From positions 1 through 43,370 of the forward strand of contig JAKSOF010000017.1 of NCBI GenBank assembly GCA_024405735.1: a stretch of 43,370 nt of DNA. The letters are read 5' to 3'. Positions 21,281-43,370 of the stretch are shown here, one piece after another. This DNA comes from Victivallaceae bacterium. GTDB lineage: Bacteria > Verrucomicrobiota > Lentisphaeria > Victivallales > Victivallaceae. A program made the translations under genes and the position numbers. Within the stretch, counting starts at the first letter, position 1; each line of letters starts with the position of its first letter. A model generated the notes under the pieces. That model was not told the origin of the DNA, did no database searches, and worked only from the letters and a program-made list of their open reading frames with translations.

Positions 21281-23119
21281 TTGAATATCGGAGCATTCGT
21301 TGTTTTTCACGGAAAAAGTGCGGAAATCACCGCCGTCAACGGTGAAAAGATCCAAATCCGCATCGAGGGCGGCGCGACCAAAAGCGTCCGTCCGAAAGAT
21401 GTCGAGTTTCTTCACGCCGGTCCCGTCGGCAGTTTGCCGCCGCCGGAACTTCCGGCGCCCGATTTCGCGGAAATTGCGGAACTTCTGGCAAATGAAACGG
21501 TAAGTTTCGCCGATTTTACGCAACTTGCCTATGACAAAAACGATGCCGCCGCCGCTTATGCCGCTTATCGCATTTTGCAGGAAAAACGTTATTTTTCAGG
21601 AAGCGTCGAAAGCGGTGTTACCGCATTGCCGAAAGCGGAGATCGACGCCCGGCTTGCCGCGCTGAAGGAAAAGGAAAATCAGCGTCAGGAGCGGGAGGCG
21701 TTTCTGGAACGCATACGCAAGCGCGCCGTCGAAACGGCGGATTTTCCGAAATTACGGGAAATCGAAGCGGTCGCTCTCGGCGATGCGCCGGGTAGCCGGT
21801 TGATGCGCGATCTGGAAATCGAAGCGACTCCGGAAAAGGCGCACCGGCTTTTACTGGAGCTTGGCGTTTGGGATGTTTTGCGTGACCCGTGGCCGGCGCG
21901 GCTCGGAGTGGAAACAAAAAATGCCGAAATCCCGCTTCCCGTTTCGCGGAAAATCGATCGGGTCGATCTTGCAGCGATGCGTGCATTGGCGATCGACAAT
22001 GCGGGAAGCAACGATCCCGATGACGCGATAAGTTTTGCCGACGGTCTGCTTTGGGTGCACGTCGCCGATCCCGTCAGCGCGATCGACTACGGCGATGAAA
22101 TCGATCTTGAAGCGCGTGAGCGCGGGACATCCAGTTATCTGCCGGAAAATGTGACAGGCATGTTGCCCGACGCGGCGCGTCTGCGTTTCGGTCTGGGATT
22201 GCAGGAAACATCGGATGCGCTGTCTTTCGGCATCGAAATCGACGGACAGGGGGATGCGGTTTTAAAAAAAATGTGCCTGTCGACGATCCGCGTCGAAAGA
22301 TTCACCTATGAAGACGCCGCCGCCATCTGGGAGGAGTCGCCGTTGCGGGAGATTCGCGAAGTGTTGACGCGATTCCGGCAGCGCCGCGAAGCCAACGGGG
22401 CGCTTTTTCTGCGTTTGCCGGAAGTGGAGATCAAAGTCGTTGACGGCAAAGTGAAAATTTCCCCTTCGCCCGTCACTCCGGAGCGGGAACTTGTCGCCAA
22501 TGCGATGCTTGCCGCCGGGCAGGCGGTCGCGCGGCACATGGCGGAAAAAGGCATCGCCTTTCCTTTTGTCACGCAAGCGCCGCCGGAAATCGAAACGCGC
22601 GGGACGTCGCTACCTGAAATGTACGCGCTGCGCCACAATGCGGCGTCAAGTGTAGTCGAATTGTCGCCCGGCAGACATTACGGTTTGGGATTGGAGCCCT
22701 ATTGCCGCGTCACGAGTCCCTTGCGCCGCTACTCCGATCTTTTGGCGCATTATCAGTTGCATCGTTTCCTTGAGGGGAAAACGCCGCTTCCCGTCGAAGA
22801 AATGGAAAACGCGATCACGCCAAGTGAAAACGCCGCCGCCGTCCGCCGGAAACTGGAGCGTTATGCCGATGAATATTTTCTGATGGTCTATTTACAGGAT
22901 CATCCCGATTGGGAAGGGGAGGGCGTTGTCATCGACAGGCAGGGGGACCGCTTCGCCATTGCGATCGAAGACCTTGCGTATGAATACAAAAGCCGTTATC
23001 AGGGGAAATTCAAAGTCGGGGATAGAGTGCATCTGAAACTTGTCGCCGCCGACCCGGTAACGCTGAAAAGCGTTTTTCACTTCGACGTGCCGCCGATGGA
23101 AAAAGACCCCTCGGAATAA
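21281..23119 (+). CDS. RNase II/R-family 3'-5' exoribonuclease
   Basis: 612 residues. The RNB catalytic domain fills about 230-540. It begins with AIDNAGSNDPDDAISF, which carries the Asp cluster binding the two metal ions, and includes YCRVTSPLRRYSDLLAHYQL near its end. The N-terminal 220 residues are strand- and helix-rich but lack an obvious pair of cold-shock domains; a degraded S1-like tail may lie at 545-605. It probably degrades single-stranded RNA processively in the cytoplasm. The start is TTG: AGGAG lies 8 nt upstream, a good promoter sits just before it, and no ATG fits better. The 3' end overlaps the convergent small secreted-protein gene by 43 bp. Confidence 0.88.
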   Translation: MNIGAFVVFHGKSAEITAVNGEKIQIRIEGGATKSVRPKDVEFLHAGPVGSLPPPELPAPDFAEIAELLANETVSFADFTQLAYDKNDAAAAYAAYRILQEKRYFSGSVESGVTALPKAEIDARLAALKEKENQRQEREAFLERIRKRAVETADFPKLREIEAVALGDAPGSRLMRDLEIEATPEKAHRLLLELGVWDVLRDPWPARLGVETKNAEIPLPVSRKIDRVDLAAMRALAIDNAGSNDPDDAISFADGLLWVHVADPVSAIDYGDEIDLEARERGTSSYLPENVTGMLPDAARLRFGLGLQETSDALSFGIEIDGQGDAVLKKMCLSTIRVERFTYEDAAAIWEESPLREIREVLTRFRQRREANGALFLRLPEVEIKVVDGKVKISPSPVTPERELVANAMLAAGQAVARHMAEKGIAFPFVTQAPPEIETRGTSLPEMYALRHNAASSVVELSPGRHYGLGLEPYCRVTSPLRRYSDLLAHYQLHRFLEGKTPLPVEEMENAITPSENAAAVRRKLERYADEYFLMVYLQDHPDWEGEGVVIDRQGDRFAIAIEDLAYEYKSRYQGKFKVGDRVHLKLVAADPVTLKSVFHFDVPPMEKDPSE

Positions 23120-23619
23120 TAACGGATCTTCATTTTCCCGCGAACTGCTTTGCCGACGGAGAAACAGAAAATTTTTTCCCGCGGTTCAAACTCGATTTCG
23201 TATTTGGGCATCGAGCCATAGCTGACGTTGCCGTTGCCGGTCACCATCGCCTGCGGTCCGAGACGGCATACATTGCCGTTGGCATCGTAGGTCGCCCAAG
23301 CAAGAGACGGCGCTCCGGAGCTGGCGCGGAAATCAATACGCTTGAGGTTTCCGATCTGTATTTCGTAGACCTGATTATCGGGGTTTTCTCCGAAATTGCC
23401 ATTGGCAAAAATAACCGCTCCCCCCATCGACAGACGATCACGGATGCTTTGTCCCCCTTGTGTGGAAAGTTGTTTTTTTTCCGTATTTCGTTTGAAATTG
23501 GTATAAACTGTACGCGGAGTAGCGAGAAAATCCGTATCGACGGTGCGTTCATCAGCAAAAATCAGCGATGTGATGCATAATAATGCGACGGTCCCTGATG
23601 TGGACAATAATTTTTTCAT
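23077..23619 (-). CDS. Small secreted protein of unknown function
   Basis: 180 residues with an N-terminal signal peptide (MKK, hydrophobic core to about residue 20, cleavage probably after SLIFA). The mature part is polar and probably beta-rich (VYEIQIGNLKRIDFRA, PKYEIEFEPREKIFCFSVG). I do not recognise a family. GGGAG lies 9 nt upstream of the ATG, and a promoter is present at 23646-23674. Its last 43 bases overlap the 3' end of the RNB gene on the other strand. Confidence 0.6.
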   Translation of the reverse strand: MKKLLSTSGTVALLCITSLIFADERTVDTDFLATPRTVYTNFKRNTEKKQLSTQGGQSIRDRLSMGGAVIFANGNFGENPDNQVYEIQIGNLKRIDFRASSGAPSLAWATYDANGNVCRLGPQAMVTGNGNVSYGSMPKYEIEFEPREKIFCFSVGKAVRGKMKIRYYSEGSFSIGGTSK

Positions 23620-23829: not shown

Positions 23830-24345
23830 ATGAAAAAACTGCTCTGCTTGATGGCGCTTGCCGCCGGGGTGCTCGGTGCGGCGGAATACCGCATCGAAGG
23901 AAACAATATGAATTATGACGAAGATTGGCAAAAAGGCGTCGGCGGCGGAACCGGCGGTTCGATCCTCTATGCTCCTAAAAAAGGACTGAAAGCAACGGGG
24001 ACCTACGCGATTCCCACTGCGGGCAAATATGTGGTTTGGGTTCACGGAGAAACCCGTAACGAAGGCTGGCGCAAGGCGCAAATCAAGATCAACGGTATTC
24101 CCTTCGGAAAATTCGGCGACGACAAGATCAAAGGCTTTACGAAACCGACGTTTTACTGGAAAAAATTGATGCTTCCGCTCGAAGTCAAGACGGATGGCGA
24201 AGTTATCAAAGTGGAAGTCGTTTCGTTGTCCGGCAGTGCCCGTTTCGACAGCATCGTGCTCAGCAGTACGCCTGATTTCACGCCCGTCGGCAAAACCGAT
24301 GCCGAAGTCGAGGAAGCCGCCGAGGAACTCGAATCCGGCGAATAA
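23830..24345 (+). CDS. Secreted stand-alone carbohydrate-binding-like protein, paralogue 1
   Basis: 171 residues: a signal peptide (cleavage probably after GAA at 18) and one beta-sandwich-like domain, with an acidic C-terminal tail. It shares a pattern with the proteins at 40524-41027 and 41024-41551: G-x-Y-x-x-W-V, then IKINGIPFGKFGD (compare IYLNGKKVGTFGD), a W-rich strand, GE-x-IK-x-x-VS, and ARFDSIVLS. Lone domains of this fold usually bind glycans, as in CBM6-like or golvesin-type modules. No enzyme is attached. A ligand is inferred only. Monocistronic, with its own promoter and a strong terminator. Confidence 0.65.
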   Translation: MKKLLCLMALAAGVLGAAEYRIEGNNMNYDEDWQKGVGGGTGGSILYAPKKGLKATGTYAIPTAGKYVVWVHGETRNEGWRKAQIKINGIPFGKFGDDKIKGFTKPTFYWKKLMLPLEVKTDGEVIKVEVVSLSGSARFDSIVLSSTPDFTPVGKTDAEVEEAAEELESGE

Positions 24346-36026: not shown

Positions 36027-37208
36027 TCAGAGTTCGGCGACGTCCGTCGAAACGGGCCATTGCCACGCTCCGGCGTATTCGCGGTCAAAAATGTTGAGAT
36101 AAACGGCAGTCGCGCCGGACGGGATCGTCGCGGAAACGATGTCGCCGTGGATTTCGGCGGGGAGCGTTTTCCATTCGCGTTTGACGCCGGGGGCGCCGGA
36201 AGCGTAATTCAACTCCGCGCGTTTGACGCCTTCACCGGGGTCGAGGATCGTCGCGCGTACCCGGTTCCCGCAAACGGAGAGCGCGGAAATGCGCGCGTGA
36301 GCGCGGTCTTTGCCGCAAAAAGCATCGACGTAACGCTGAAGCCCCGCGTAATCCCAGCCGACGTGATCGTGATCGAGCCGGACGACGAGAGCGGCGCCTT
36401 GCGTTCCCGGCGCCTGCTGATAAGTCTTTTGCCACTGGGCGATCTCAAAGGCTTCATCGTTGGTCCCGGCGAACCAGAAGGTCGGCACGGTGAGATTTTG
36501 CACGAAGTATTTCGGCTCAAACGAGTCTTTGGCGTATTTCACAAAGCTCCCGTCGGCGCCGCGGTCCCAGTTGCCGCACCCGTAGCACAAGGCGGCAAAG
36601 GCGAAACGGCGGTCAAGCGAACAGGCGATCGACCCCATCACGCTGCCCCACGAAATGCCGAGCAGTCCGATCTTGTCGGGATTGATTTCCTTTTGTTGAC
36701 GCAAAAAGGTGTTGGCGCGGACGGCGAGCGCAACGCCGTTATGCACCCACAAGTGACGCTGGGCGTCATTGCCTTCGGAGAAACCGCCCGATCGGTCCTG
36801 CCACGAATCTTTCAGCACCGGACGTTTGGGGCGCGCGACTTCCGTCGCCGGTTCCTGACCGTAATGGTCAAAGGTGATCACGGCGTAACCGCGGTCGCGC
36901 CACTTTTGGACGTAGTTTGCAAACGCCGTGCCGCCGCCCCCGTGAAAGAGGACGACCGCCGGAAATCCGCCCTGCGGGACCGGAGTCGAAGGCAATGCGT
37001 AATAGGCGTAGGCTTTCGTTGTTTTGCCGTCGGAAGTTCTGGGCCCTTCCAGCAGGAAAGAGAGGACTCCTTCGGCGCGGTATTTTTCCAATCCGGTGTC
37101 GGCAAAAGTCTGCGGGACGGCAAAAAGTTCCTCCTTGGTCCATTGCATCGGCTCTGCGGCGCAGACCGCCGTCGTCAACGTCGTGGCGAGAAGCGTTTCT
37201 TTCATCAT
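36027..37208 (-). CDS. Secreted alpha/beta hydrolase (dienelactone hydrolase/acetyl esterase-like)
   Basis: 393 residues with a short signal peptide (1-18, ending VCAA). Oxyanion loop HGGGG (89-93), nucleophile S186 in GISWGS, Asp251 in GTNDEAF and a His near 280-282 (HDHVGW) give a plausible triad. The C-terminal 90 residues are a separate beta-rich segment. Such enzymes often remove acetyl groups from plant or mucin glycans. ATGATG start; either Met could be used. Three bases separate it from the symporter gene upstream, and mntP follows without a gap. Confidence 0.8.
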   Translation of the reverse strand: MMKETLLATTLTTAVCAAEPMQWTKEELFAVPQTFADTGLEKYRAEGVLSFLLEGPRTSDGKTTKAYAYYALPSTPVPQGGFPAVVLFHGGGGTAFANYVQKWRDRGYAVITFDHYGQEPATEVARPKRPVLKDSWQDRSGGFSEGNDAQRHLWVHNGVALAVRANTFLRQQKEINPDKIGLLGISWGSVMGSIACSLDRRFAFAALCYGCGNWDRGADGSFVKYAKDSFEPKYFVQNLTVPTFWFAGTNDEAFEIAQWQKTYQQAPGTQGAALVVRLDHDHVGWDYAGLQRYVDAFCGKDRAHARISALSVCGNRVRATILDPGEGVKRAELNYASGAPGVKREWKTLPAEIHGDIVSATIPSGATAVYLNIFDREYAGAWQWPVSTDVAEL

Positions 37209-37211
37209 CTT

Positions 37212-39275
37212 TTATTTCCCTTTTTTATCTTCGACCGTACCGTCGTCGTTGGCAAGCGAGAGATGCTCCCGCATGTCACCGGGCAGCAAGTAGGCATTGT
37301 AAAGACCGCCGAGCGTCAGCCACGCGGTGGCGACGACCATGATGACCAGTTGGACGACGAAATAGGTTTTCCAGTATGCGCTCCAGACGAAAAGCGGGAT
37401 CTCGTCCACTCCGGGGATCCACCCCGCCTCGATCATCAGAAATGCGCAGGTGCCGATCAGCAGACAGACCCACCAGATCAGGCAGTAGCAGATTGTGAAC
37501 CAGAAAAGGAAACCGTCGAATTTGCCGAATTCCAGGGAGTAGCCGATCATTTCTTTCCAGTTGCGCCTGGCTTCGGTGGATTCTCCTGGCGTTTTGTCGT
37601 CGGCGATCCGGTATTTCCCCCGGTGGAGCATCCGGTCGAGGTTAAAAGGCGGTTGCGGAAACACGAGCGACAAAACAACGTAACTTAATGTCGCGACCGC
37701 CATCGCGATAAAGTAGATCACCTGACCATTGATCGGGAATTGGTCGAGATGGTCGGCAAGCCAGTTGCAGTCGGGGAATATTTCAAGCAGTTTCAGCGCG
37801 AATGCGTGCCACAATGCTTTGGTCTGGAGCAACGCCCCGGCAAAGGAAAGAGTTCCACCTGAAATCATCGAGACCCACGCGGCAAGCGTCGTGCCGCGTT
37901 TCCAGTAAAGACCGCCGAAAATGACGATCCCTGCGCCGCCGAGATAGATGGAGCCGGTGACGGCGTAGTACATAAAAATCGGGATTTCAAAGTCGTAGTG
38001 CTTTTCCAAAAGATAAAGCCCGCAACTGAAAAGAAAGGCGAAAACCGCGACCGATGTGATCGAAAGACGCAACCAGCGGATGTGCCGTTTGGCGTCGATT
38101 TTCTTTTTCTGCAACGGCAACAGAAAGTCCTGGACGAAAATACTTCCCCACGTGTGCAGACAAGTGTCGTCGATACTGACCGAACAGGCGAAAATCATCG
38201 CGGCGAAGCCGCCGAAAACCCACCCGGGCAGATTGAGTTGCAGAAAACTGGTGACGACGACCATCGCGCTTTTAGTCGCTTCCGCATTGACGTCGCCGCC
38301 GAGCGAATCGCGCAACGGCGCCGCATACTCCGCCAGATCGGGGTTGTGCAGTACCGCATAGGCGATGAGCGGCGGCAAAATGTAGCAGACCTGTGTCGCG
38401 AGGTGACGCCAGCGTCCGAGCACGCCCGACATCTGAGCGTCGTGCGGCGTTTTGGCGGAGGAATCGTATCCGGCGCCGCCGCCCCAGCTTTTCGCGTTGT
38501 AGATACTGCCGTAGACACCGATCAGAAAGTACCAGATGTTGAATTGGTCGATCTTGGTCGTATTAAACGGATTGACGAATTCGTTGCGCACGGCAAGTCC
38601 GGCGAAAACGTCGTTCCAGCAGAAACGGGCGACGAGGAAACAGAGCATCACGGCGATCAATATTTTGCAGATGACTTCCTGATAGAAGTCCGTCAGCATA
38701 ATACTGATCTGACCGCCGACGATCGCGATGAAAAGGGCGAGTCCGAGATTGAAAAACATCACGACCATCGCCATATTGCATTGAAACGTGATTTCGCCGA
38801 TCGAAACGGGAAACGTTTCCGGCAGACCGAGCAAACCGAGGGTCAGTTCGGCGACGACCAAAGGCATGATCGCATAGTTGATCACACCGGATATCCAACT
38901 CAAAAAGCCGGCGAAAATACGGAATTTCCGGCTGTAACGCATCTCAAAAAACTGAAAGAGGGTAAGCGCGCGGGTCTCGCGGAAACGGTAGCTGATGAAG
39001 CCGGTCACGGCGACGACAAGACCCACCGGCACGCCGATCTGATCCCACCAGATCGGCGTCACGCCCGCCGAATAATACATTTCCCAGGTGGCGACCATTC
39101 CGGCGCCTCCCGTCATGCCTCCGGCGACGGTCAAAAGATATTTGCGAGCCATGCGGTTCGCGGAGAGGAAATCGGCAACGCCTTTGACATATTTATTCGA
39201 CCAAATGGTGACCGCCAGCATGCCGAAAAGCAGAATGCAGAAAAAAATCCAAAACGATGGAGAGGAAAATACCAT
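37212..39275 (-). CDS. Sodium:solute symporter (SSS family)
   Basis: 687 residues with about 13 to 14 hydrophobic helices in the LeuT-like SSS arrangement. The N-terminal helix is followed by VADFLSANRMARKYLLTVAGGMTGGAGM, here split by the membrane. A long polar segment (about 570-600) lies before the last two helices, which makes it larger than typical 500-residue members. It imports a solute, probably a sugar, sugar acid or related compound, with sodium. No good Shine-Dalgarno precedes the ATG, and three hairpins lie in the 147 bp upstream. Confidence 0.9.
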   Translation of the reverse strand: MVFSSPSFWIFFCILLFGMLAVTIWSNKYVKGVADFLSANRMARKYLLTVAGGMTGGAGMVATWEMYYSAGVTPIWWDQIGVPVGLVVAVTGFISYRFRETRALTLFQFFEMRYSRKFRIFAGFLSWISGVINYAIMPLVVAELTLGLLGLPETFPVSIGEITFQCNMAMVVMFFNLGLALFIAIVGGQISIMLTDFYQEVICKILIAVMLCFLVARFCWNDVFAGLAVRNEFVNPFNTTKIDQFNIWYFLIGVYGSIYNAKSWGGGAGYDSSAKTPHDAQMSGVLGRWRHLATQVCYILPPLIAYAVLHNPDLAEYAAPLRDSLGGDVNAEATKSAMVVVTSFLQLNLPGWVFGGFAAMIFACSVSIDDTCLHTWGSIFVQDFLLPLQKKKIDAKRHIRWLRLSITSVAVFAFLFSCGLYLLEKHYDFEIPIFMYYAVTGSIYLGGAGIVIFGGLYWKRGTTLAAWVSMISGGTLSFAGALLQTKALWHAFALKLLEIFPDCNWLADHLDQFPINGQVIYFIAMAVATLSYVVLSLVFPQPPFNLDRMLHRGKYRIADDKTPGESTEARRNWKEMIGYSLEFGKFDGFLFWFTICYCLIWWVCLLIGTCAFLMIEAGWIPGVDEIPLFVWSAYWKTYFVVQLVIMVVATAWLTLGGLYNAYLLPGDMREHLSLANDDGTVEDKKGK

Positions 39276-39422: not shown

Positions 39423-40358
39423 CTACTTGCTCATCGAGCGGATGTCTTCGATCATGCGGGTCATCGCGATCGCGGATTCCGCGGTCAGCGTGTTCTCGCA
39501 TTTGCCTTCGACCGCATCGCGGAAGTGCTCGAGTTCGCAGACGAACGCGCTCTTTTCCGCCGCGGGAACTTCGATCACGCGGTATTCATCGGTGTGGATG
39601 ATGATGCGGTCGGGACGCTCCACGCGCATATAGCCGTTGTCGCCGAGGAAAGTGAAGGTGAGATCCTTGAAGCAGAAGGTCTCTTTCTTGGCGTACATGC
39701 CTTCGAGCAACGCGGTCACGCCGTCGCCGTAGTTGACCATCGCGTTGAAGCTGTCTTCCATTTCCCAGCCGAAGCGGTGTTCGCAACGGGAGAAAAGGAC
39801 TTCCTGCGGCAGTTTGCCGGTGATGTAGCTGATGAGGTCGAAATCGTGGATGCTCAATTCATACATCGCGCCGACTTTTTTGACCCACTGCCCCTCGGGA
39901 CGGTCGTGGAATTCCTGACTCTTGGTGCTGGTGATCGAAACGAGCTTGCCGATCTCGGGCAGGTGTTTTTTCGCTTCGATGAAAATGGGTTCATAACGCA
40001 TTTTGAAACCGACCGCGAGCACCTTGCCCATTTTTTTGGCGAGGGCGTCGAGTTCCATGCCGCTGGCGACGTCGGTGGTCAGCGGTTTTTCCGAGAAGAC
40101 GTTGTAGCCCGCTTCGAGCAACGCCTTGACCACGGGGTAGTGGGCGCGCGGCGGAGTAACGACGCTGACGCCGTCGAGATCCTTGGGCAGATCTTTCATA
40201 TCCGTGATGGGGGTCGCGCCGCAAAGTTCGGCGCAGGATTTCGCCATCTCTTCCTTGAGGTCGCAGACCGCGACGACTTGCACGCCGGGGATCGACGCCC
40301 AGCTGCGCGCGTGCGCTTTACCGATGCCACCGCATCCGACAATACCAACTTTAAACAT
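39423..40358 (-). CDS. Gfo/Idh/MocA-family NAD(P)-dependent oxidoreductase
   Basis: 311 residues, a compact member. Dinucleotide loop GCGGIG (8-13), EKP (90-92), and the C-terminal domain with SIHDFDLISYI, the likely Asp-x-x-x-His-type position (here D and H neighbours). It probably oxidises a sugar or inositol released from a glycan. It lies between the two secreted binding-domain genes and the symporter, all on the minus strand. AAGGAG lies 8 nt upstream of the ATG. It is clearly different in sequence from the member at 5210-6292. Confidence 0.88.
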   Translation of the reverse strand: MFKVGIVGCGGIGKAHARSWASIPGVQVVAVCDLKEEMAKSCAELCGATPITDMKDLPKDLDGVSVVTPPRAHYPVVKALLEAGYNVFSEKPLTTDVASGMELDALAKKMGKVLAVGFKMRYEPIFIEAKKHLPEIGKLVSITSTKSQEFHDRPEGQWVKKVGAMYELSIHDFDLISYITGKLPQEVLFSRCEHRFGWEMEDSFNAMVNYGDGVTALLEGMYAKKETFCFKDLTFTFLGDNGYMRVERPDRIIIHTDEYRVIEVPAAEKSAFVCELEHFRDAVEGKCENTLTAESAIAMTRMIEDIRSMSK

Positions 40359-40523: not shown

Positions 40524-41027
40524 TCAGTCAAAAAGTTCCAATTCGGCAACATCATCGACGCTGCCTTCGGGCTTGTAGTTTTCATCCGTGGTGAGGATGA
40601 TCATATCAAAACGGGTGTATTCCGACTGCGAAACGAGTTTGATCACAAGTTCGCCGGCTTCCAGATGGCTCTTGAGCAGCGAGCGGTTCCACTGCCAGAC
40701 GCCGCCCTTGCCGTCGGCGGTCTTTTTGTCGCCGAACGTGCCGACTTTTTTGCCGTTGAGGTAGATCACGGCCTTACGGCTGTTGCCGCACATCGTGTAG
40801 TCGCGAACCCAGAGATAGTAATCGCCGGCTTCGGGAATGGCGGTCCGGGTGGAAACGGTGGCGCCTTTTTTATTCATCCGCAGATATTTGCCCTGCGAGG
40901 CCTTGCCCATGTATTCGACGACAAAACCGTCGGCTTGGGGAAAGTTTTCGCATTCGACCATGAATTCGGCGGCTCCGACTCCGGCGGTCAGCACGGCGGC
41001 GGCGATCATTGACGTCATTTTTTTCAT
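40524..41027 (-). CDS. Secreted stand-alone carbohydrate-binding-like protein, paralogue 2
   Basis: 167 residues: signal peptide (1-19, ending VGAA) and one beta-sandwich-like domain beginning FMVECENFP. Key shared pattern: GDYYLWVRDY, GNSRKAVIYLNGKKVGTFGD, WQWNRSLLKSHLEAGE, IKLVSQSEYTRFDMIIL. It is closest to the next gene upstream and more distant from paralogue 1. The ATG overlaps the stop of the upstream paralogue (ATGA), so the pair is made together, perhaps in equal amounts. The ECENFP start recalls CBM6/CBM35-type modules, but the ligand is not known. Confidence 0.7.
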   Translation of the reverse strand: MKKMTSMIAAAVLTAGVGAAEFMVECENFPQADGFVVEYMGKASQGKYLRMNKKGATVSTRTAIPEAGDYYLWVRDYTMCGNSRKAVIYLNGKKVGTFGDKKTADGKGGVWQWNRSLLKSHLEAGELVIKLVSQSEYTRFDMIILTTDENYKPEGSVDDVAELELFD

Positions 41028-41551
41028 TTTTCTTCCTTTTTGGGTTGGAGGGGAATTGTGGTCAATTCCGTAATTCCTGTTTGTATTCCTTTAGGCAGAA
41101 ATGCCGTATCGGTCGAAAAGATCAGCGCGTCGACGCGCGTGTAGGGAGAAGTCGATACCAGTTTGATTTCCAGCTCCCCCGCTTCCAAATGAGTGAGGGC
41201 GGGGGCGTGATACCAAGTGAATGCTCCGGCGCGGTTGTTTTCCGGCGTGCCGTCGCCGAGAGAAGCGGTTTTTTTGCCGTTGAGATAAATATCGACTTTG
41301 CGGAAATTGCCGCCGAAACTCATTGTGCGTGCCCAAAGCGCGTAATCTCCGCTTTGCGGCAAATTGAAACGCGCAGTCGTTTCCGCGTTTTCATCGGTGA
41401 AGTGGAGAAATGCGCCGTTTTGCGCCAGTTCGTCTTTGGCAAGTTTGACATTGCGGCTTGCCGGGAAATTTTCGCATTCGACACCATACTCCACCGCGTA
41501 AAGCGAAAGCGCCGCCGAAAGGCAGAGAAATGCGAAAGCAACGTTTTTCAT
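41024..41551 (-). CDS. Secreted stand-alone carbohydrate-binding-like protein, paralogue 3
   Basis: 175 residues: signal peptide (1-19, ending LYA) and one domain beginning YGVECENFP. It shares GDYALWARTM, GNFRKVDIYLNGKKTASLGD, LTHLEAGELEIKLVSTS and YTRVDALIFSTD with paralogue 2, so the two arose by tandem duplication. No catalytic motif is seen and no enzyme is attached. A near-consensus promoter lies at 41600-41628. Together with Gfo/Idh and the symporter downstream, it points to glycan capture and use. Confidence 0.7.
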   Translation of the reverse strand: MKNVAFAFLCLSAALSLYAVEYGVECENFPASRNVKLAKDELAQNGAFLHFTDENAETTARFNLPQSGDYALWARTMSFGGNFRKVDIYLNGKKTASLGDGTPENNRAGAFTWYHAPALTHLEAGELEIKLVSTSPYTRVDALIFSTDTAFLPKGIQTGITELTTIPLQPKKEEK

Positions 41552-41599: not shown

Positions 41600-41628
41600 A
41601 CTATACCACACAAATATGGTTTTGTCAA
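41600..41628 (-). promoter_or_regulatory. Promoter of the paired binding-domain genes
   Basis: On the minus strand TTGACA (41623-41628), 17-bp spacer, TATAGT (41600-41605), about 50 bp before the start at 41551. Confidence 0.75.
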
Positions 41629-41639
41629 TGAAAAAACTT

Positions 41640-42127
41640 TAAAAAAACGCATTTGTTGAAAGAGAAGAGAGAGAAACTGCATACGCTTTGATTGCCGTCG
41701 GATGCGAGTCGGTTGCCGACGAGCGCGCAGTCGGATGGGAGCGATTTTACGCATTGCGAGCAATGCGGAAATGCGCAAACAGTTGTTTGCGCAAGCGACC
41801 GTAGACGAGCACGGTAGCCGCGAGCGAAGAGGAGCGAGGAACGAAGCGACGATGAAGCGCAGGCGTATGGGAGTAAAAGGGGGAACATCCTCATCCGTCA
41901 CGATCGCAGTCGCACGGGAAAAGGGGTGGTCAAGGAGGGGAAAGCTGACAGAGTACGGCTGTCTCCTCCTTGCTCCGATCCCGTCAGGCATACCACAGAA
42001 CCTCCCTGTTTTTCTCACTTAAAACCCACGGCGAGAGTTATGAAAGATGGGAGAACCTATGGAGAGGGGGTCTCGCGCCTGCGGCACGACGCATTGATTT
42101 GCGCAATACTCTCTCTTAAAAAGTCTC
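41640..42127. repeat. Hairpin-rich intergenic block D, no gene
   Basis: 490 bp with no convincing coding region. A weak minus-strand open frame covers part of it but has no ribosome site and no recognisable protein. Tandem hairpins are clear: GCATTGC/GCAATGC at 41751-41766 and TGCGCAAAC/GTTTGCGCA at 41772-41793. The style (GAGCGAGGAACGAAGCGACG) recalls blocks A to C, but a long shared segment was not found by eye. Confidence 0.5.
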
Positions 42128-43255
42128 TTATTGAATTTTTCGCCATAATTCGGCAAGGGTTTCCGGCGGAGCTTCCCGGATGTACGAAAAGAGGTCGCGC
42201 CGCATGGATTCTTCCTTTTTTGGAGCGGGTGTAAAGCAGGTCAGATGGTCCATTTTACGCATGGCTTCGATGCGCGCTTCGCGGTCGGCGTGATCCTGGT
42301 AATGCCGGGTCATTTCGGGGGAAAGATGTCCGACGATCCGCTGAACGACGAAAAGGGGGATCCCCCGCATTCCGGCGTAATAGCAGAACGTATGACGGAG
42401 CGAGTGGAAATCCTTGACGCTCTGCCGCCGTTTTCTGCCGGGAACGACGATATTGGTCTGAATGCCGAGTGAATGTAAAAATGCGTGAATTTTGCGGTTG
42501 AGGACATTCTGATGCTCCAGATAAAGTTTTGCCGCTTCCGGGAGCACGAAAGTTTCATCGGGATATTTTTGATGTTGTTCCGAGAGAAAATCCGCCAGTT
42601 CGTCGACGACGGGGATCTCGACGGTGTTTCCGGTTTTGCGGGTGCGTCGGCGGATCTCCCCGCCGCGGAAATTGGAATTTTTTTCCGCATCGATTTCCGC
42701 CCAGCGGAGCGTCGCCACATCGCCGAGCCGGAGCCCGGTGTAAATCCCGATGGTGAAAAGTCCGCGCATCAAGGGGGGAGGGGCGGTGAAAATTTTCCGC
42801 AACTCAAAAGAGGTGAAAATCTCCCTTCCGATCGCCGCTTTGGGCAAAGGGAAAATCAGGGAAAAGGGATTTTCCTTTTTACCGAGATCGGGAAGCAATG
42901 CGGTAAAAACCGCTTTGCAGACCGCCTGATAACGGTTCAAAGTGGAGGCGCTCAAGATGTCGCCCGTCTGGTAATTGCGGAAAAAGGGGCGTTGCGGACA
43001 ATTTTCTTCGCGGTAGCGGACGACCCGATCCCATCTTCCGTAAGAACGGATGTAACTGATGTACGCTTCGGCGTGTTGTCTTTTGACCTGATGGAGGAAC
43101 TGGAGCCGGTACCGGTCGCGTAAAAAAGCCGTAAAATCAAGCCAGTAACGCCGGGTGACTTTGACGAATTGCTCCGAAGCCGTTTTGCGTCGCGGTTTCT
43201 GCCGTGCGAGATCGAAAGCTTCTTCAAGCGGAATCAGGATTTGACGATGAGACAT
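42128..43255 (-). CDS. Tyrosine recombinase (phage-type integrase)
   Basis: 375 residues. An N-terminal core-binding region (about 25-150) precedes the catalytic domain with R176 (TGLRLGD), K207, H284 and R287 (HSLRH), H310 (VGH) and the nucleophile Y319 (TRHYQDH): a full active site, so it could be functional. The reading frame stays open upstream, but the ATG at 43255 has AAAGGA 8 nt before it and a promoter at 43286-43314. It is too long for XerC/D (about 300 residues). No excisionase, phage or conjugation gene is in view, though the window ends 115 bp upstream. Confidence 0.88.
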   Translation of the reverse strand: MSHRQILIPLEEAFDLARQKPRRKTASEQFVKVTRRYWLDFTAFLRDRYRLQFLHQVKRQHAEAYISYIRSYGRWDRVVRYREENCPQRPFFRNYQTGDILSASTLNRYQAVCKAVFTALLPDLGKKENPFSLIFPLPKAAIGREIFTSFELRKIFTAPPPLMRGLFTIGIYTGLRLGDVATLRWAEIDAEKNSNFRGGEIRRRTRKTGNTVEIPVVDELADFLSEQHQKYPDETFVLPEAAKLYLEHQNVLNRKIHAFLHSLGIQTNIVVPGRKRRQSVKDFHSLRHTFCYYAGMRGIPLFVVQRIVGHLSPEMTRHYQDHADREARIEAMRKMDHLTCFTPAPKKEESMRRDLFSYIREAPPETLAELWRKIQ

Positions 43256-43285
43256 AAAATGATCCTTTCTTTGGTTGAAAGTGCA

Positions 43286-43314
43286 AATATACACATTCAT
43301 CCAAAAGCTTGCAA
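43286..43314 (-). promoter_or_regulatory. Promoter of the integrase gene
   Basis: On the minus strand TTGCAA (43309-43314), 17-bp spacer, TATATT (43286-43291), 31 bp upstream of the chosen start. It supports 43255 over the longer reading, whose start would lie upstream of the promoter. Confidence 0.65.
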
Positions 43315-43370
43315 GACGCTTCGGGGGTTTGAGGGTAAATTTCTCAAGCTGCCACAATAGCGATCATCGG

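Follow-up and report, generated by a model that had tools for sequence, protein, structure and literature searches.

Three small proteins encoded in a stretch of Victivallaceae DNA (P1, P2 and P3) are probably secreted, single-domain carbohydrate binders of the CBM6/CBM35/CBM36 type that were freed from the N-terminus of a large GATase-like/GH-like enzyme and act in trans. The three share the same domain and the same fold, the domain is fused to the enzyme elsewhere, its stand-alone copies are restricted to one lineage, two of the genes sit in a conserved locus, and all three are under purifying selection. The stretch analysed (hereafter the window) is 43,370 nucleotides long and constitutes the entire contig C9 in the genome of an uncultured gut bacterium of the Victivallaceae, Lentisphaeria (G000; 1.9 Mb, 97% complete).

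Three small proteins with a CBM-like domain

The genes, and a promoter candidate upstream of the tandem pair, are the following:

41024..41551, minus strand: P2, stand-alone secreted CBM6/35-like protein of 175 residues, first gene of the tandem
40524..41027, minus strand: P1, stand-alone secreted CBM6/35-like protein of 167 residues, ATGA overlap with P2
23830..24345, plus strand: P3, stand-alone secreted CBM6/35-like protein of 171 residues, second stand-alone clade, acidic C-terminal helix
41600..41628, minus strand: sigma-70-like promoter candidate 5' of P2, TTGACA-17-TATAGT with TG, 11/12 matches

A sequence-only reading had described three ORFs of 167, 175 and 171 residues with signal peptides. 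Their coordinates were borne out, the tandem pair lying on the minus strand (unstated in that reading), and each of P1, P2 and P3 has a signal-peptide-like start. No lipobox was found in the three proteins by eye or by pattern search, and their mature forms are acidic (pI 5.3-5.6). When aligned over their full length with MAFFT, the other two proteins are 37% and 35% identical to P1; a search of their own genome with P1 matched them at 1.1e-32 and 1.4e-18, plus 15 further loci, and the own-genome profile match of P2 reached 4.2e-53. At the sequence level, the similarity of P1, P2 and P3 is far beyond chance. Of the motifs said to be common to the three, all three proteins match G-x-Y-x-x-W and R-x-D exactly, but the other two motifs are each exact in only two proteins: I-x-x-NG-x-x-x-G-x-x-GD has A for the second G in P2, and GE-x-x-IK-x-VS deviates in P3.

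The ATGA overlap of the tandem genes is real (41027-41024, read on the minus strand). However, in G029, the closest relative, a gap of 12 bp separates the two corresponding genes (L051 4182-4682 and 4695-5252), and we rejected the overlap as a functional hallmark. P2 has orthologues in G029 and G059, and the P3 orthologue in G029 is 85% identical. Between G000 and G029, dN/dS was 0.17 for P1, 0.26 for P2 and 0.11 for P3 (Nei-Gojobori, one genome pair, dS near 1); therefore, these are retained proteins under purifying selection and not decaying stubs. The promoter search found 2 sites where 2.5 were expected from shuffles, which leaves 41600..41628 as a candidate only. The C-terminal helix of P3 (..EELEsaE; window 24259-24342) is acidic and conserved among the stand-alone proteins of its clade, and may be a docking tail. 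Just before P3, the window encodes a 180-residue protein with a signal-peptide-like start and no Pfam match (23077-23619), convergent with an RNase-R-like gene as judged by eye.

AlphaFold2 models of P1 (pLDDT 82.7, pTM 0.77) and P3 (pLDDT 86.4, pTM 0.81; helix at 157-163) are both beta-sandwiches of the CBM6/CBM35/CBM36 type, a single shared fold that agrees with the domain proposed from sequence; P2 aligns with P1 throughout. In Foldseek, the best match of the P1 model was the CBM35 2w47 (9.8e-8). VIA-align Z scores against CBM35, CBM36 and CBM6 structures rose to 14.6 for P1 and 13.5 for P3, and values of 11-14.6 over about 114-130 residues place the two models, and P2 by alignment, within this fold. 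Pfam returned no family at E<=1 for P1 or P2 and none relevant for P3; in particular, the trio matched no enzyme or pilin family, and we rejected both identities. The best Pfam values among 18 members of the domain were 6.6e-4 for CBM_6 (PF03422) and 0.018 for CBM_35, and the trio thus falls short of the curated cut-off of either family model. A profile of the 18 copies searched against the PDB matched best the CBM35 2vzp (5.9e-5), the module of the CsxA exo-beta-D-glucosaminidase, followed by other CBM35s and a GH98-attached module. Neither IMG/VR nor phage records yielded a relative, and viral origin or carriage was likewise rejected.

Together with 2w47 (a C. thermocellum CBM35), 2vzp is also among the best fold matches, with a same-length beta-sandwich and an Arg aligned with R84 on the same strand. 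Identity to these two is ~20%, they have the region-C Asn (GPNVD) where the domain here has Arg (TRFD), and the present domain occurs as free secreted proteins as well as in enzyme modules. CBM6 and CBM36 structures (5fui, 2cdp, 1ux7, 7ay3) share the fold at VIA Z 12.4-14.4 with P1 and P3, although the trio has no Pfam CBM match and lacks their near-invariant Asn.

In CBM6/35 modules, a region-A tryptophan stacks on the sugar, and a structural calcium site is formed by an E-x-E on strand 1 and an Asp near the domain end. Across 56 copies of the domain, W113, the candidate for that tryptophan, is present in 56/56 and R84 and D100 in 54/56. For the candidate calcium site, E25 and E27 are found in most copies and D141 in 49/56, P3 having Asn for the second Glu, as read from the alignment of sequences. 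Residue 139 is Arg in 54/56 copies and Lys in the other 2, and R139 aligns, by sequence and not by coordinates, with the region-C Asn of 2vzp. That Asn, at the base of the site, is the signature of CBM6/35 ligand sites (PMC9843283), and the domain here appears to lack it. It is likewise absent from BT0996-C of Bacteroides thetaiotaomicron (7zvo), a Foldseek match of P1 with a CBM6/35 fold but without the canonical signatures, which still binds polygalacturonic acid (PMC9843283). BT0996-C differs from the acidic P1-P3 in being strongly basic (pI 9.43), and it has no region-A Trp, whereas W113, the putative equivalent, is invariant here. Because Arg replaces the region-C Asn, while the signature-less BT0996-C still binds a polysaccharide, the domain looks CBM-like by its fold and company, yet is not one to file as a canonical CBM35 or CBM6.

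The same domain in enzymes and across the order

Work on CBMs has mostly treated them as components of enzymes. P1-P3 are not enzyme modules, but elsewhere in their genome the same domain is fused to enzymes. G000 has 18 copies: 7 stand alone (P1, P2, P3 and one each on contigs C5, C8, C11 and C12), 7 are N-terminal in GATase-like/GH-like enzyme proteins of ~1070 residues (one cut by a contig end), and 4 are N-terminal in AXE1/CE7-type esterases of ~580 residues (PF05448, 1e-21 to 1e-31). Fifteen of these, 11 of them enzyme-fused, were beyond the reach of the sequence-only reading. As a statement of homology, its proposal of soluble glycan-binding proteins has good support from the modelled fold, the CBM35 profile similarity and the fusion to esterases and the GH-like enzyme. 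The esterases include two tandem pairs in which each member has the N-terminal domain (L013 2645-6147 and L019 3078-6561, on contigs C7 and C21), and G029 encodes a 326-residue protein with a signal-peptide-like start that consists of two domain copies and nothing else (L052 5338-6318).

A core of about 885 positions is common to the long proteins; in it, a GATase1-like part (PF07090, up to 2.6e-8) is followed by a TIM-barrel region with weak similarity to GHL15, GHL6 and melibiase. Against the PDB, the best values were 8e-6 for GHL15 and 6e-5 for an alpha-galactosidase. We rejected a named GH family for this enzyme and left it unassigned because its matches are weak (Pfam GHL15 3.2e-4 at best, GATase1_like 2.6e-8); the literature yielded nothing specific on GHL15 or on Lentisphaerota CBMs. 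Matches to the core in G000 number 18, of which 7 have the CBM, 10 do not and 1 is a fragment, so that the module is absent from 10/17 full or near-full copies. In three places, a stand-alone CBM gene directly adjoins a CBM-less enzyme (contig C12 of G000, L018; contigs C14 and C39 of G029, L058 and L057), an arrangement that reads as the fused protein divided over two genes. The 1.9-Mb genome has about 18 paralogues of a secreted GATase1-like/GHL15-like enzyme of ~900-1070 residues, on contigs C1, C3, C4, C5, C6, C7, C8, C12, C15, C20, C21, C24 and C25; there are 14-19 in three close relatives and 0-2 in the family's other genomes.

We surveyed 137 genomes of the order by profile search with the subfamily alignment, taking E below 1e-38 as a strong match. 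Stand-alone copies of this CBM subfamily were found only in a four-species group (G000, G029, G058 and G059). Strong matches outside it were one per genome and inside the enzyme ORF (G043, G054, G063, G113, G114, G118 and G133; in G063 the ORF runs into a contig end). On the simplest reading, the fused state is the older one. In a tree of 56 domains with poorly resolved branching order, stand-alone copies fall in at least 2 places, which requires that the stand-alone form arose independently at least 2 times, or an equal number of losses. Two weaker matches lay in ORFs of ~620-640 residues, the one in G009 being FAD-oxidoreductase-like by eye. FAD-dependent oxidoreductase-like proteins of the same bacterial family (L027, L028 and L031; the enzyme judged by eye) have an N-terminal domain with the same R-x-D ending and W-x-W region, found by the same profile, but these domains are more distant (E 1e-17 and weaker), fused in all cases seen and present in one or few copies.

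The locus around the tandem pair

Downstream of P2 and P1, the window encodes:

39423..40358, minus strand: Gfo/Idh/MocA oxidoreductase of 311 residues, PF01408 2.2e-29, no signal peptide seen
37212..39275, minus strand: SSF-symporter-like polytopic membrane protein of 687 residues, 11 TM-like stretches
36027..37208, minus strand: alpha/beta hydrolase, dienelactone-hydrolase/AXE1-like, of 393 residues, signal-peptide-like start, PF00561 2.3e-6 and PF01738 4.8e-6

The Gfo/Idh enzyme named by the earlier reading was confirmed by its PF01408 match. For the symporter of that reading Pfam gave no match, but a homologue located next to Gfo/Idh in G027 (L137:3019-5271) matches SSF (PF00474, 9.8e-8). 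The hydrolase is linked in G029 as well (81%).

The usual form of this locus comprises LacI, a xylose-isomerase-like TIM barrel (PF01261), a pilin-like gene (N_methyl/DUF1559), the CBM-enzyme and Gfo/Idh, all or most in the same direction; we found it in G054, G043, G118, G113 and G133, and partially in G114, G020 and others. In the close relatives G029 and G059, LacI-TIM-pilin and Gfo/Idh flank the P2-P1 pair, which stands in the enzyme's slot. The pair in the window likewise precedes Gfo/Idh, near the end of C9, and contig C16 terminates in LacI-TIM with the start of a pilin gene. These two parts were probably split by a break in the assembly, because they lie at or near contig ends and P2-P1-Gfo/Idh sits beside a dispersed repeat with 37 matches. 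This repeat (~360 bp, window 41660-42025) has several of its 37 genomic matches at contig ends, and the stand-alone CBM gene on C12 has a copy beside it too. Upstream of P2, at the contig end, lies a phage-integrase/Xer-type recombinase (42128-43357, PF00589 3e-17) that was not found at the G029 counterpart. A tblastn search of the intervals separating P2, P1 and Gfo/Idh detected no remnant of the enzyme, so that its loss in place is only conjectural.

The Gfo/Idh orthologue is present in 14/14 enzyme-holding genomes and in 16 of the 137 genomes in all, often directly downstream of the enzyme (E<=1e-60 limit fixed in advance). Counted by genus, the overlap is 7 within 9 of 48 (hypergeometric about 5e-7, kinship uncorrected). 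The earlier suggestion that the proteins feed a catabolic locus is plausible, since P2 and P1 immediately precede Gfo/Idh in a type of locus that is conserved throughout the order; that they feed the transporter would be speculative. Against the PDB, the Gfo/Idh protein matched DgpA2 at 2.1e-15, but inositol dehydrogenases gave better scores. For the TIM barrel of the locus, the closest relatives are an uncharacterised xylose-isomerase-domain protein (3tva) and psicose epimerases. For these reasons, we considered a 3-keto-glycoside (DgpA-like) pathway and kept it as a lead only.

Possible roles of the stand-alone proteins

We infer that a binding module was freed from the large secreted enzyme and retained as a stand-alone protein, and that each of P1-P3 binds a glycan through the usual, here putative, CBM face. 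As binders they would then act in trans, retaining substrate for the enzyme paralogues or close to them, and the LacI/TIM-barrel/pilin-like/Gfo-Idh/SSF-like locus at P2-P1 may take up and oxidise the released sugar. Several observations count against this reading: only some stand-alone genes adjoin an enzyme gene, and P3 does not; in the window, the gene that follows the pair is Gfo/Idh; the near-invariant CBM6/35 Asn is Arg here; the tree calls for two or more stand-alone origins, or as many losses; and the locus retains no enzyme remnant.

The same replacement, in nearly all 56 copies, would fit a protein-docking or assembly module in which the arginine-based site is structural and the stand-alone copies dock on the enzymes or on the pilin-like protein. 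The acidic helix of the P3 clade, modelled with high confidence, and the pilin-like gene adjoining P2 in G029 and G059 point the same way. We nevertheless consider this unlikely: the domain heads esterases and GH-like enzymes, a CBM's usual place, its nearest solved relatives bind sugars, and BT0996-C binds polygalacturonic acid without canonical signatures too (PMC9843283). It is less probable still that the proteins capture soluble ligand for the neighbouring SSF-like transporter, as substrate-binding proteins do. The order P2-P1-Gfo/Idh-SSF-like in the window and in G029 suggests such a role, but the enzyme fills the corresponding position in other genomes, many loci have no transporter beside Gfo/Idh, the fold differs from that of periplasmic binding proteins, and the remaining stand-alone copies lie elsewhere in the genome. 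The pair occupies a slot where relatives have the full enzyme, which would fit the idea that the proteins are N-terminal stubs of decayed enzyme genes, expressed without function. This is very improbable given the dN/dS of 0.11-0.26 between G000 and G029, complete ORFs with C-terminal ends conserved in several species, duplication and diversification of stand-alone copies in two clades, and the absent downstream remnant.

Within the reading of P1-P3 as binders in trans, we raise, tentatively and as a rather doubtful extension, that in this lineage the freed module became a set of 7 secreted binders whose site is arginine-based, that two of these took over the operon slot of the enzyme, and that the enzyme itself expanded to ~18 copies, so that binders and catalysts combine freely rather than in one chain. 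If this is true, the tight coupling of the enzyme to a Gfo/Idh oxidoreductase would point to an unusual oxidative glycan pathway. Closely related genomes in which the same module is fused, absent and freed, even in the same operon slot, amount to a natural experiment on the contribution of a CBM to its enzyme. They also bring to light a type of locus, a GATase/GH-like enzyme with Gfo/Idh in 14/14 genomes, whose enzyme makes up a notable share of a 1.9-Mb gut genome.
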